Source: Actinomycetes bacterium (lineage in GTDB: Bacteria; Actinomycetota; Coriobacteriia; Anaerosomatales; Anaerosomataceae). From it: a stretch of DNA of 64,000 bases. The notes under the pieces are model-generated. The model did no database searches. It had not been told where the DNA came from and saw only the letters and a list, made by a program, of their open reading frames with translations. The translations under genes were made by a program, and so were the position numbers. Of this stretch, positions 7,691-35,109 are shown one piece after another (position 1 is the first letter of the stretch; each line of letters opens with the position of its first letter). The stretch covers positions 1-64,000 of the forward strand of contig JAJFTR010000036.1 in assembly GCA_021372825.1 (NCBI GenBank). The letters run 5' to 3'.

Positions 7691-7723
7691 ACGCACGCGG
7701 AGTGTGGTATTCTACGGAGTGCT

Positions 7724-7840
7724 TTCTTCAGGGCGGGGTGAGATTCCCCACCGGCGGTGAGAGCCCGCGAACCCCTCCTTGGGGCCGAACCGGTGAGATC
7801 CCGGTGCCGACGGTACAGTCCGGACGGGAGAAGGAAGGTC
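7724..7840 (+). promoter_or_regulatory. FMN riboswitch (RFN element)
   Basis: The stretch carries the RFN core in order: AGGGCGGGGTGAGATTCC, then CCACCGGCGGTGAGAGCCC, then CCGGTGAGATCCCGGTGCC and GACGGTACAGTCCGG. These match the conserved segments of the FMN-sensing aptamer. It lies directly before ribD. The 3' part runs into AAGGAAGG (7831-7838), the probable ribosome site of ribD, and there is no terminator with a T-run. Control by hiding the ribosome site is therefore more likely than transcription attenuation. Confidence 0.95.
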
Positions 7841-27167: not shown

Positions 27168-29135
27168 ATGCCGGTGGAACGTCGCGACTTCCCGTTCACT
27201 GCTATCGTAGGGCAGGACACACTGAAGCAGGCGTTGCTCTTGAACGCCGTCGATCCGCGTGTCGGTGGCGTGCTCATACGCGGTGAGAAGGGGACAGCGA
27301 AATCGACTGCGGTTCGAGCACTTGCGCGTGTCGTTCCACCGATCGAGGTCGTCGACGGCTGCCGATACGGGTGTGATCCAAGCGGTACTGCGAACCGGTG
27401 CGAGGACTGCGAATGTGCGAGACGGACGGGCCCGCTGCCGCAAACCCGACGTCGTCCGCGTCTGGTAGATCTTCCGGTCTCGGCCACCGAAGACAGAGTC
27501 GTCGGCACACTCGACCTGGAACATGCCCTCAAGAAGGGCGAGCGACGCTTCGAGCCAGGCCTTCTCGCCGATGCCAACCGTGGCATCCTGTACGTGGACG
27601 AGGTGAATCTCCTCGAAGACCACATCGTAGACGCGCTCCTGGATGTGGCGGCAAGCGGCGTGAACATCGTCGAGAGGGAGGGCGTACGCTTCTCGCATCC
27701 CGCGCGGTTCATCCTTGTCGGCACGATGAATCCCGAGGAGGGTGAGCTACGGCCGCAGCTCTTGGACCGTTTCGGACTGTGTGTGGACGTACAGGGTCTT
27801 GACGATCCGGGCGAGCGGGTGGAAGTGCTACGCCGCCGCCGGGCTTTTGAAGACGATCCCGAGGGTTTTGCACGAGAGTGGCGCGACGCTGAGCGCGAGT
27901 TGGAGGTACGTCTTGCTCAGGCCCAGCGCCGAGTAGACGACCTAGAGCTTGACGACGACCTCTTGTTCTTGATCGCCTCGGTATGCTCGGCTTTGGGAGT
28001 GGATGGCCACAGAGCCGACCTCGTGATGGCAAGGGCTGCAGTCGCGCATGCTCTGCTGCGGGGGGAGTGCGAAGTCACGAGTGCAGACGTGCGCGCCGTG
28101 GCGCCGATGGTGCTCGCCCACCGGATGAAGAAGAAGCCTTTCGATGACGAACGGCACGACGGTGACAGGCTGGCAAGCGCACTTGCGGCGGCTGGCATGG
28201 CCGACCCGCAGGGTGAAGCTGCTGTCCCCACGCCGGTCTCCGGAGACGTGGTCGACGACATCCAAAGTGTCTTGCGGTTGACGGTCGATCAAAGTACAGC
28301 AGTCGAGTCCGTCGAGGAGGTCAGTGCACGCCTTACGACCGACATGGATCGATTGCGCCGCTCATACGGTGGCAAGCGTCATGTGACGACTTCCGGTGAC
28401 AGGAGCGGCAGATACGTGAGCTCGGAGCCTTTGCGTCCGGGGATGGCCCCGGACATCGCATTCGATGCCACGATGAGAGCCGCGGCTCCCATGCAAGCCG
28501 GGCGGGAGGGCGACCTGGCGATCAAACTCGACACAGCGGACCTCCAGAACAAAGTGCGACAGCGTCGCGTTGGGGCATCGATCGTGTTCTGCGTGGACGC
28601 GAGCGGGTCGATGGGGGCTATCAACAGGATGGAAGCGGCCAAGGCGGCCGTGCTTGAGCTTCTCGTCGATGCGTATCAGCGTCGTGACCGAGTGGGACTT
28701 GTCGCGTTCCGAGGGGAAAGCGCCGAGCTTCTTCTTTCGCCGACAACGAGCGTGGAGCTCGCGCAACTCAAGCTTCGAAGCCTTCCGACAGGCGGAGCAA
28801 CGCCCCTCGCGCATGGTCTGGTGCGGTCTTTGGAAGTCCTTGAGTCCGAGACACGGCGCAACGACGAGGTCATCCCGTGGCTCGTCTTGGTCACAGACGG
28901 CCGTGCAAACGTCGGCATCAACGGCGGGCTGGGCTCCGAGGACGCGAAGAGTGCCGCTGCGCGAGTGAGGGCCGGTAACATCAACACTATCGTGATCGAC
29001 ACGACGGCGTTGCCAGGAGGCGGGACCGCGGCTCGGGAGATCGCGCGCGAAGCAGGAGCAGAGTATGTGCGTCTCGCCGGACTCGATGGCAAGGGCCTGG
29101 TAGGCGTCGTGCGCAAGCACGTCCGTTCTGCCTAG
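27168..29135 (+). CDS. ChlI-ChlD type chelatase: AAA+ ATPase fused to VWA domain
   Basis: The 655-residue protein unites both motor subunits of a magnesium- or cobalt-chelatase. Residues about 8-330 are AAA+: Walker A GEKGTAKST, a cysteine-bearing insert (DGCRYGCDPSG, CEDCECARR) as in ChlI-type proteins, Walker B GILYVDEVNLL and GTMNPEEGELRPQLLDRFGL. A low-complexity linker follows. The C-terminal VWA domain starts at IVFCVDASGSMGA, with the MIDAS residues DxSxS intact. The catalytic ChlH/CobN subunit is not in the window, so the metal is unknown. Such fusions often serve cobalamin synthesis. GGGAAGAGG precedes ATG 27168. Confidence 0.88.
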   Translation: MPVERRDFPFTAIVGQDTLKQALLLNAVDPRVGGVLIRGEKGTAKSTAVRALARVVPPIEVVDGCRYGCDPSGTANRCEDCECARRTGPLPQTRRRPRLVDLPVSATEDRVVGTLDLEHALKKGERRFEPGLLADANRGILYVDEVNLLEDHIVDALLDVAASGVNIVEREGVRFSHPARFILVGTMNPEEGELRPQLLDRFGLCVDVQGLDDPGERVEVLRRRRAFEDDPEGFAREWRDAERELEVRLAQAQRRVDDLELDDDLLFLIASVCSALGVDGHRADLVMARAAVAHALLRGECEVTSADVRAVAPMVLAHRMKKKPFDDERHDGDRLASALAAAGMADPQGEAAVPTPVSGDVVDDIQSVLRLTVDQSTAVESVEEVSARLTTDMDRLRRSYGGKRHVTTSGDRSGRYVSSEPLRPGMAPDIAFDATMRAAAPMQAGREGDLAIKLDTADLQNKVRQRRVGASIVFCVDASGSMGAINRMEAAKAAVLELLVDAYQRRDRVGLVAFRGESAELLLSPTTSVELAQLKLRSLPTGGATPLAHGLVRSLEVLESETRRNDEVIPWLVLVTDGRANVGINGGLGSEDAKSAAARVRAGNINTIVIDTTALPGGGTAAREIAREAGAEYVRLAGLDGKGLVGVVRKHVRSA

Positions 29136-29140
29136 AGGGC

Positions 29141-29480
29141 GGGAGTGGGCCTGTAAGCCGGATTCTGTCGTGGGCGACCATTTATCTGGGACCACCGTCA
29201 CCGATGGCCTCGTGCGGGCAAACCCGAGCGACGGCCGGGCCAGCCTTGACCGCTCCTATTGGCCCTTGCTCCAGGTGGGGTTTGCCAAGCCGCCATGTTG
29301 CCATGGCGCTGGTGCGCTCTTACCGCACCGTTTCAGCTTTTCTCTCGCGTGAGCGAGGGAGTCTTCTTTTCTGTGGCACTTTCCGTCGGCTCGCGCCGCC
29401 CTGCCGTTAGCAGGCACCTTGCCCTGTGGAGTCCGGACTTTCCTCACGCATCGCTGCGCGCGGCCGCCTGGCCCACTCCC
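29141..29480 (-). ncRNA. rnpB: RNase P RNA (bacterial type A)
   Basis: Read on the minus strand, the RNA starts GGGAGTGGGCC and ends GGCCCACTCCC, giving an 11-bp perfect P1 helix. Near the 5' end is GAGGAAAGTCCGGACTCC, the universally conserved segment; near the 3' end is ACAGAATCCGGCTTACAG, the other hallmark. Length of about 340 bases suits the ancestral A type. It lies after glnS on the same strand and its 3' end almost touches the end of the convergent chelatase gene. A few bases at either end are uncertain. Confidence 0.96.
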
Positions 29481-33068: not shown

Positions 33069-33509
33069 TCACACAGCGTTGCTCTCGGCCCGAGCGGCGA
33101 TCTCACATGCATCGGACCGGCGCAGAAGGTACCACGTGACTCCGATGGCCACGATTAACACGGCCAGTGCGCATGCCTTGAGAAGAACGTACATCGGCTC
33201 GCCTGTGGTCTCGAAGATGACAAGCTTGCGCACGACCGCGACCAAGCCGGCCTCCATCACGGTCGTGATCACATTGCGGCGGCTCATGTAGGCCACCGCG
33301 ATGTTGAAAAGCTCGATCACGACGAACACGACAAGGACCGAGTCGAGAACGCGCAGGATGGTCTCAGGGGTGAGATACCCCTTGCCGCTCACTGCCGCAT
33401 ACAGTTCGACGACCAGATCGACGGCTCCCAAGACAGCGATGACCACCAAGAGTGACGCGATGACCCGCTCTAACCAGTCCACGGCCTTGTGGAGGACCTT
33501 TCCGAACAC
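33069..33509 (-). CDS. PsiE-family membrane protein
   Basis: The 146-residue protein has four predicted membrane helices (for example ASLLVVIAVLGAVDLVVEL, SVLVVFVVIELFNIAVAYM, LKACALAVLIVAIGVTWYL). The arrangement, including a basic loop after the second helix (SRRNVITTVMEAGLVAVVRKL), matches the phosphate-starvation-inducible PsiE family. Its biochemical role is unknown. It starts with GTG 33509, six bases after GGAGGT. It runs toward gltX with a 21-base gap and could be cotranscribed with it. No phosphate-regulator site was recognised. Confidence 0.75.
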   Translation of the reverse strand: MFGKVLHKAVDWLERVIASLLVVIAVLGAVDLVVELYAAVSGKGYLTPETILRVLDSVLVVFVVIELFNIAVAYMSRRNVITTVMEAGLVAVVRKLVIFETTGEPMYVLLKACALAVLIVAIGVTWYLLRRSDACEIAARAESNAV

Positions 33510-33585: not shown

Positions 33586-33614
33586 TTGTTGAAGGCGCAT
33601 GTGAGTGCTACAGT
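33586..33614 (+). promoter_or_regulatory. Promoter of metK
   Basis: TTGTTG (33586-33591), a 17-base spacer and TACAGT (33609-33614), with TGC just before the -10, make a plausible promoter with an extended -10. The start of transcription would be near 33621, right where the SAM riboswitch begins. Confidence 0.6.
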
Positions 33615-33622
33615 CCGATGGA

Positions 33623-33756
33623 CTCATCATGAGGCAGCGACGGTGACATGTCGCTGCAGAGGGCGTAGGGACCGCACCCGACGATGCCCCGGCAACCGAA
33701 GTCGAAAGTGATTCACGGTGCCACATTGCGGCAGGCTCACGGGCCTGGAAGATGAG
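33623..33756 (+). promoter_or_regulatory. SAM-I riboswitch with an extra hairpin
   Basis: P1 is CTCATC (33623-33628) with GATGAG (33751-33756). Further SAM-I signatures are ATGAG after P1, then GGGACCGCACCCGACGATG, CCCCGGCAACC, CGGTGCCACATTGCGG and P4 (CAGGC...GCCTG). These match the S-box aptamer. An extra perfect 8-bp hairpin (33634-33641 with 33650-33657) sits between the 5' P1/J1-2 region and P2, which I do not recall from the normal SAM-I consensus. It precedes metK, a classical target, so SAM should repress SAM synthetase. Confidence 0.88.
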
Positions 33757-33777
33757 GGAATACCGGCTCTTGCCGCG

Positions 33778-33806
33778 AGTCCCTTGTCTTGAGCGGGCGA
33801 GGGACT
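33778..33806 (+). terminator. Expression-platform terminator of the SAM riboswitch
   Basis: AGTCCCT (33778-33784) and AGGGACT (33800-33806) pair and are followed by TGTTGTTCC. The 5' arm can alternatively pair with AGGGA at 33755-33759, which begins in the riboswitch P1 3' strand. SAM binding, by locking P1, would thus favour the terminator and shut off metK. Confidence 0.6.
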
Positions 33807-33861
33807 TGTTGTTCCTCAGGAACAGAAGCGAGCGAACGCTCGCGCGGATGAAGGAGACGGT

Positions 33862-35109
33862 ATGGCTCGGGACTACGTGTTCACCTCGGAGTCGGTCACA
33901 GAAGGCCATCCTGACAAGATGTGCGACCAGGTCTCGGACGCTGTCCTCGACGCGATAGTGAAGCGCGAAGGCGAGTTGGAGGACCAGGGCTACACGACAC
34001 CGGGCGGCTCGAAGGCGTCGCGCGACTACGTCCGTGTCGCGTGTGAGACGCTCATGACGACGGGGCTCGTGGTTGTCGCAGGCGAGATGCGGACGCATGC
34101 GTACGTGGATATCCCTGCCATTGTGAGGCAGACCATCAAGGATATCGGATACACGCGGGCGAAGTTCGGGTTCGATCACGAGACCTGCGGTGTATTGACC
34201 GCCATCCACGAGCAGAGCCCAGACATCGCGATGGGTGTCGATCAAGCACTCGAGGTCAAGCGCGGGGATTCCGATCCGCTCGATCTCATCGGCGCTGGTG
34301 ACCAGGGCATGATGTTCGGGTACGCGTGCAACGAGACGAGACAGCTCATGCCGATGCCGATCCATCTGGCTCATCGCTTGGCAGAACGGCTTGCGGCGGT
34401 GCGAAAGGAAGGCGGCCCCCTCGGCTACTTGCGTCCCGATGGCAAGACAGAGGTGACCGTCCGATACGTTCAGGGCATGCCTGCGGCTGTGGAGAAGGTG
34501 GTGATCTCGTCCCAGCATGCGGACGGGGTCGACATCGAGAGCCTCATGCGGCCTGACATCATCGAGCACGTCATCGAGCCCGTACTCGACCTTGAAGACA
34601 TCGAGTGGGACGACGCGGAAGTGTATGTGAATCCGACTGGCCGGTTCGCTCTTGGAGGCCCTATGGCGGATACCGGCCTCACAGGCAGAAAGATCATCGT
34701 CGACACGTATGGGGGAATGGGCCGTCACGGCGGGGGAGCTTTCTCCGGCAAGGACTGCACCAAGGTGGACCGTTCCGCGGCATATGCCGCACGCTGGGTG
34801 GCCAAGAACGTCGTCGCTGCGGGTCTTGCCGATCGCTGCGAGCTTGAGCTCGCTTACGCCATCGGCGTGGCGCACCCCTTGTCCATCACGGTCGATACCT
34901 TCGGCACCGAGAAGGTGGATGTCGCCAAGATCGAGCGCGCCATCGGCGAGGTGTTCGATCTCAGGCCCGGCGCCATCATCCGAGACCTCGACCTTCGGCG
35001 ACCCATCTATCGCAAGACCGCCGCGTACGGTCATTTCGGCCGAGAAGACGGCGACTTCACGTGGGAGCGCACCGATCGGAAAGACGCGCTCCTCGCCGCA
35101 ATCGAGTAG
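33862..35109 (+). CDS. metK: S-adenosylmethionine synthetase
   Basis: MetK makes SAM from methionine and ATP in the cytosol. The 415 residues show [16 protein letters not shown] at the start, [12 protein letters not shown] (the hexapeptide-like ATP motif), [19 protein letters not shown] and the C-terminal [17 protein letters not shown]. All are typical. GAAGGAG at 33850-33856 precedes ATG 33862. It is preceded by a SAM-I riboswitch and followed by a terminator, so it is probably a single-gene unit. Confidence 0.97.

Follow-up and report, generated by a model that had tools for sequence, protein, structure and literature searches.

The leader of metK in the window (the whole 64,000-nt stretch of DNA analysed) contains an S-box (SAM-I) aptamer, 33623-33756 on the + strand, whose P1 ends 105 nt upstream of the gene and which carries an additional hairpin between J1/2 and P2a. 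Comparison of related sequences establishes this insert helix, its position, and its distribution among the loci read, which includes nearly every locus read in the class Coriobacteriia. We regard the element, with good confidence, as a metK-leader SAM-I riboswitch of clade-specific form; its insert would be a structural accessory that leaves ligand and logic unchanged. This kind of switch is well known, and the element is a variant of it, not a novel type.

SAM-I Aptamer Upstream of metK

The features of the leader are listed in Table 1. In the free fold of the aptamer, P1 encloses four hairpin arms, namely the extra hairpin (33634-33657), P2, P3, and P4. The four-helix core P1-P4 of SAM-I is found in this fold, in the pairing of alignment A1, and by RNAalifold, and the L2 × J3/4 pseudoknot is present, 100% paired and covarying in A1. 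This alignment comprises 54 distinct sequences, 52 from the order and two from named class members (L005 and L007). Dropped beforehand were L138 (a weak second place in one genome that is no riboswitch and is not counted below), three duplicates within the set (L102, L108, and L124), and L112, which is identical to L004 and is represented by it. Over the whole A1 structure, pairing reaches 98.2% and double changes number 197, with 0/500 shuffles as good. The stability of the whole aptamer fold in the window is only moderately special compared with shuffles (z -1.68, 11/200 as good); the case rests on the relatives.

Table 1. Features of the metK leader in the window
Feature	Position	Strand	Basis and remarks
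Extended -10 promoter-like TGnTAnnnT	33606-33614	+	Sequence; conserved upstream of A1 loci
P1 5' strand CTCATC	33623-33628	+	Pairs with 33751-33756 (GATGAG); A1 columns 3-8/151-156, 99.7% paired
J1/2 ATGAG with G11, A12 (pocket bases) and G13 (T. tengcongensis numbering)	33629-33633	+	G11, A12, and G13 columns invariant, 54/54
Inserted hairpin: 8 outer Watson-Crick pairs and 1 G-U, 6-nt loop 33643-33648	33634-33657	+	Folding, covariation
Linker AGA from inserted hairpin to P2a	33658-33660	+	3 nt in 52/54 and 20/22; 4 nt in the other four
P2a 5' strand GGGC	33661-33664	+	Pairs with 33686-33689; 99.5% paired, covarying
Kink-turn 5' side GTA	33665-33667	+	U replaces the leading G of the usual tandem G.A
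P2b hairpin GGG-ACCGCA-CCC; loop 33672-33676 is the pseudoknot 5' half	33668-33679	+	A1 covariation
P2a 3' strand GCCC and C33690 (possible partner of G33633)	33686-33690	+	C invariant, 54/54 and 22/22
P3 with SAM pocket GGCAACC...GGTGCC	33691-33722	+	A1 helices; invariant columns
J3/4 pseudoknot strand TGCGG	33727-33731	+	Pairs with 33672-33676 (CCGCA); 100% paired; 3/5 pairs changed on both sides
P4 hairpin	33732-33747	+	99.3% paired
P1 3' strand with its flank, AAGATGAGGGA; can pair instead with terminator 5' arm (putative antiterminator)	33749-33759	+	11-bp duplex with 33780-33790
Terminator-like hairpin with stem from AGTCCCTTGTC, followed by T-rich TTGTTGTT	33778-33813	+	-21.3 kcal/mol
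metK, methionine adenosyltransferase (SAM synthetase)	33862-35109	+	TIGR01034, 542.6 bits (cut-off 309.4)

The pocket bases of the T. tengcongensis aptamer are listed in the accessible part of PMC3764141, which describes recognition of the methionine moiety of SAM by G11 together with C44 and G58, and zipping of G11-A12 to P3. Mapped by eye, the columns that match the pocket positions G11, A12, G43, C44, A45, C47, U57, and G58 are invariant in 54/54 sequences. The pocket bases are thus intact, and the aptamer is predicted to bind SAM. The P1 pair A6-U88 lies near the SAM sulfonium. Its bases are listed as highly conserved in the accessible part of PMC3764141. The pair is G-C in 17/22 rows of alignment A4 (columns 6/211; class members outside the order) and in 2/54 rows of A1.

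The kink-turn is retained with one substitution. In T. tengcongensis numbering, the A20 and G35-A36 positions are kept, and the window has U at the G19 position. Because the first tandem G is replaced by U, a U-A Watson-Crick pair may take the place of the sheared G.A pair. At this first tandem-G position (within A1 columns 49-51), U occurs in the window and nine relatives and C in one (11/54).

RF00162 is the best family for the aptamer, with 36.9 bits (E 8.4e-07 for 501 bases) against a gathering score of 44.4, and the Rfam scan of the window run at the gathering threshold did not report the aptamer. The insert is the likely cause of this score below the curated cut-off, and likewise the likely reason that the reference model underscores these metK riboswitches in general. 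The RF00162 alignment begins at 33652 and uses the 3' arm of the inserted hairpin as the 5' strand of P1. We hold this placement to be wrong because 33623-33628 pairs perfectly with 33751-33756; the true P1 strand starts 29 bases further upstream. In the relatives sample (the window's own genome and 60 others of the same family or order, searched with RF00162 at E up to 1), the score exceeded the cut-off in 13/61 genomes. A separate cmscan of 20 loci reported RF00162 in all 20, over the cut-off in nine, without a match to any other SAM family. The element belongs to SAM-I by its structure, pocket, and target, as read from sequence, at a score under the curated cut-off. The hallmarks of SAM-I to which the preliminary description had pointed were all found: the J1/2 GAG, the kink-turn (with its one substitution), GGCAACC...GGTGCC, the L2 × J3/4 pseudoknot, and metK downstream. 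The outer ends of P1 coincide with the bounds stated in that description.

Structure and Covariation of the Insert

The stem of the insert starts immediately 3' of G13 of J1/2 in all 76 aligned rows (54/54 in A1 and 22/22 in A4), and the linker to P2a measures 3 nt in 72 of them. A4 comprises 22 class members, 21 from genomes of the same class but another order and, in addition, L005; L213, which lacks the insert, and L007, which is identical to L200, were left out. The two alignments overlap in L005, present in both, and in L007 of A1, whose sequence is that of L200 in A4.

In A1, 97.8% of the 324 cells of the insert helix are paired, with 67 double changes, and 0/500 shuffles, which ignore kinship, were as good on either measure. 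When the partners were slid by 1-3 columns, 20.7 to 51.1% remained paired. In A4, the helix is paired in 90.2% of 132 cells with 31 double changes (0/500 shuffles as good on either, again ignoring kinship), and slid partners pair in 25.0 to 55.3%. Double changes affect five pairs in each alignment; this count of pairs, a weaker measure, was reached by 3/500 shuffles of A1 and by 119/500 of A4. RNAalifold predicts the insert unaided on both MAFFT alignments. Shuffling of the 24-mer of the window gave an outer stem as long in 1/20000 cases and a fold as stable in 0/2000. A chance hairpin is rejected by these shuffles together with the covariation in A1 and A4.

A perfect 8-bp hairpin directly after ATGAG had been described beforehand, and its eight outer Watson-Crick pairs are indeed present, with compensatory changes in the relatives. 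The location that was ascribed to it, near the kink-turn and pseudoknot side of the aptamer, is incorrect: the hairpin leaves the base of P2a beside J1/2, and the kink-turn and pseudoknot lie at the other end of P2. It had also been considered that a covariance model might read the hairpin as a normal P2 or as part of a known subclass. RF00162 places P2 downstream of the insert, so the identification of the insert with P2 is rejected, and neither SAM-IV nor SAM-I/IV was reported as the best of the clan.

Another conceivable arrangement has the hairpin between P1 and J1/2, with the downstream AGAG (33658-33661) as the functional J1/2. The window does contain this AGAG string after the hairpin as well as the GAG before it, but relative to P2a the register of the downstream copy is short by one base (A1, by eye), and the upstream G11-A12-G13 is invariant. 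Moreover, the second base of the downstream copy is not G in 20/22 other class members, with linkers such as ATA and ACA; L210 and L211 have AGTT. We consider this arrangement very improbable and reject it on the linker sequences of the class members.

Folding gives insert stems of 6 to 10 pairs in A1, and a GNRA tetraloop closes the stem in 26/54 sequences. A much longer insert arm was observed in two genomes of one genus (L195, 201-360; L212, 1001-1192). The variable stem length, the presence of GNRA loops in 26/54 only, and these long inserts argue against a fixed docking contact, and the candidate of a fixed GNRA docking helix was rejected. The insert pairs at A1 columns 14-40 and 15-39 are nearly invariant (53/54 and 52/54), and the distal pairs vary. 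This pattern fits a helix that is needed or tolerated at the junction and has a free tip.

Distribution of the Insert

RF00162 matches were obtained in 55 of the 61 genomes of the relatives sample and in none of the other six. Collecting homologues with the insert, as the preliminary description had proposed, yielded the hairpin directly after the J1/2 GAG in 55/55 riboswitch loci of the order and in 21/22 loci read elsewhere in the class Coriobacteriia, a class total of 76/77. This recurrence across the order and other lineages of the class lay beyond the reach of that description. All 55 loci of the order have metK downstream, 89-166 nt from the aptamer end (L098 aside, with 73 nt and a misplaced aptamer end), as do 21/22 of the class loci outside the order. 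The named carriers outside the order are members of Atopobiaceae and Coriobacteriaceae (L005 and L007), and HGW-Actinobacteria-7 (L004) is an insert-bearing member of the order. It is from the named members that the class is taken to be Coriobacteriia.

A covariance model built with the insert included (R1) gave one match in the window's own genome, with 138.7 bits, the next scoring 12.4 bits. R1 matched 91/296 class genomes, 61/69 in the order and 30/227 outside it; the 197/227 genomes outside the order without a match are to be read in light of search filters that lose some weak matches. Of the 30 matching genomes outside the order, 21 were read (22 places), and 20 of them carry the insert. 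In G295 (29.8 bits), the insert is absent, and no metK was found in the ~1 kb downstream that was examined. The insert-bearing places read outside the order score at least 77 bits, and the nine unread genomes score 90 to 98. At E 0.01, R1 found nothing in 205/296 class genomes. Families f19 and f22 are absent from the matches listed, so metK control may be lost or replaced there.

In the phylum sample, R1 matched 166/396 genomes, six of them in the class. The best 24 of the 160 matching genomes outside the class (one locus each, 50 to 64 bits) showed no insert, with GAG running straight into P2a in 24/24; L172 and L175, for which the R1 alignment drew in extra upstream bases, were read by eye as canonical. 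A pattern for an insert of 22-51 nt matched 8/396 phylum genomes, namely the six class genomes and two outside the class whose aptamers are canonical with a chance upstream TCnnGAG. Among the named metK leaders outside the class, the insert was absent in the 34 parsed, which have the canonical 26-29 nt. The parse covered 40/80 named loci: these 34, three class loci with the insert (L004, whose row was mis-registered, L005, and L007), and three that were mis-parsed (L006, L022, and L074), of which L022 and L074 were read as canonical by eye. Since the insert is present in nearly all class loci read and absent from the non-class loci read, it looks like a trait of the class Coriobacteriia that was probably gained once.

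Comparison with Related SAM Riboswitches

Relative to SAM-I (RF00162), the window form has the same P1, J1/2, P2a/kink-turn/P2b, P3, P4, L2 × J3/4 pseudoknot, pocket bases, metK target, and terminator platform. It differs in the covarying hairpin and short linker added between J1/2 and P2a. With the SAM-IV riboswitch (RF00634), it shares a homologous SAM pocket, and with SAM-I/IV (RF01725) a homologous core.

These families belong to the same Rfam clan, and SAM-IV is known from Mycobacterium, an actinobacterium, according to the accessible part of PMC6890682; assignment of the element to SAM-IV or SAM-I/IV instead of SAM-I is nevertheless extremely improbable. The cmscan gave RF00162 in 20/20 loci with no other SAM family, and P4, the kink-turn, and the L2 × J3/4 pseudoknot are all present. 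As SAM-IV is described in that part of PMC6890682, it has a P5 after P1 and a second pseudoknot (PK-2) with the P3 loop and has no P4, whereas the window element has its extra helix on the 5' side and retains P4. A crude test for a P5 found no consistent hairpin after P1, with 17/54 loci, the window included, beating 90% of 50 shuffles. In an equally crude test for the second pseudoknot, pairing of the P3 loop with the 3' region was hardly above shuffles (mean longest run 3.98 vs 3.65, 48 loci). On these two comparisons, a SAM-IV-like P5 and second pseudoknot were rejected. A short hairpin does often follow P1 in the loci of the order (for example, 33764-33775 in the window), and it beats 90% of shuffles in those 17/54 only. 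The SAM-I/IV variant has no internal loop in P2 (accessible part of PMC2864571) and no split P2 (accessible part of PMC6890682), whereas the P2 of the window is split by the kink-turn; this variant was rejected on that feature.

Junction Geometry

In the Rfam structure, the first pair of P2a is G13-C75 (A1 columns), that is, G13 with the C before GGCAACC, and both bases are invariant in 54/54 and 22/22 sequences. The remaining four P2a pairs follow the insert and the linker. The insert would thus either separate the first P2a pair from the second or, if the first pair is open, lie in the central junction. Because G13 and the C are invariant, no covariation is possible, and the sequences fit both junction forms. 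The insert may, as the preliminary description suggested, change the central junction from four-way to five-way.

We lean slightly toward a three-way junction inside P2a, in which G13 (33633) would pair with C33690 as in canonical SAM-I and the central junction would stay four-way. The pair is given by the Rfam structure line, its two bases are the invariant ones, and the rest of P2a consists of exactly the other four pairs. However, this same invariance offers no covariation test of G13-C33690, a single pair flanked by two helices may fail to form, and thermodynamic folds leave G13-C33690 unpaired. The three-way junction is compatible with our overall explanation of the element.

Putative Promoter, Terminator, and Proposed Switching

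The motif TGnTAnnnT is found at most 45 nt upstream in 45/51 A1 loci, 13-18 nt before the aligned start. From this spacing, transcription should begin just before P1, and the start is expected near 33621 in the window.

The counts for the expression platform refer to 54 loci, with L098 excluded (aptamer end misplaced) and loci with identical aptamers kept. Downstream of the aptamer, 52/54 loci have a hairpin of less than -14 kcal/mol that is followed by a T-rich tail, compared with 1-7/54 in five shuffled sets, and at a looser threshold of -8 kcal/mol a terminator-like hairpin is found in 54/54. In 48/54 loci, the P1 3' strand has its best partner in a stretch that overlaps the terminator 5' arm; shuffles gave 3-7/54 under a slightly different overlap rule. 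In the window, the antiterminator duplex (33749-33759/33780-33790) has 11 bp and -15.8 kcal/mol, with 2/100 shuffles as good. Across the loci, this duplex was matched by at most 5/100 shuffles in 34/54 and by more in 20/54.

Since an antiterminator involving the P1 3' strand is a possible competitor of the terminator, high SAM most likely turns metK off. Switching off by termination is standard for SAM-I. We propose that SAM binds the canonical P1/P3 pocket and stabilizes P1, which would keep the P1 3' strand from pairing with the terminator 5' arm. The terminator would then form, and metK, encoding SAM synthetase, would be off. At low SAM, the antiterminator would form instead, and metK would be read.

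Possible Role of the Inserted Helix

The insert grows out right after G11-A12-G13, and 3 (rarely 4) nt connect it with the remainder of P2a. In our proposal, it would act as an accessory helix that keeps its base and its spacing at the junction but is free in sequence, length, and loop. Most likely, it helps to order the P1-P2 strand, through folding or positioning of J1/2, and leaves ligand and logic unchanged. We infer this accessory role, like the off direction of the switch, from the sequences; it is the likeliest reading of the insert, and neutral inheritance is a serious rival.

According to that rival, an ancestor within the class acquired a stem-loop at a site where insertions are tolerated, and the stem-loop was passed on to the descendants with no regulatory role. 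Many riboswitches tolerate long, non-conserved stem-loop insertions at specific sites with the core undisturbed, as stated in the accessible part of Barrick and Breaker (2007, PMC2258182), and the sequence, length, and loop of the insert do vary freely. However, its pairing is maintained by many compensatory changes, the linker stays at 3 nt in 52/54 and 20/22 sequences, its two basal pairs hardly vary in A1 (53/54 and 52/54), and the insert is present in 76/77 class loci read (55 in the order, 22 outside). We regard neutral inheritance as possible but rather doubtful. A stronger form of the accessory reading can be put forward tentatively, at somewhat less than even chance: the insert may define a structural subclass of SAM-I, fixed in this clade, whose added helix beside the SAM-contacting J1/2 remodels the central junction, as a five-way junction or as a three-way junction in P2a, and tunes folding or affinity. 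This would be a peripheral solution unlike those of SAM-IV and SAM-I/IV.

No published report of a helix at the J1/2-P2a site was found in a search of mainly open-access literature without supplements. Stem-loop insertions are common in riboswitches according to the accessible part of PMC2258182, and the surprise is therefore moderate. The significance of the insert lies in its site: the J1/2-P2a strand accepts a helix two bases from a SAM-contacting G, and the helix is kept at all 55 loci read in one order. Aptamers with and without the insert form a natural pair for testing how peripheral helices tune SAM-I folding.

Other Elements in the Window

Three further features were observed in the window. 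An FMN riboswitch is located at 7720-7839 (+, 112.7 bits). RNase P RNA class A occupies 29138-29479 on the - strand (290.6 bits), and on the opposite strand an ORF of 655 aa has its end at 29135. The divergent gene adjoining the metK leader (33069-33509, -) is weakly similar to PsiE (phosphate-starvation-inducible), with 32.9 bits, below the cut-off of 138.
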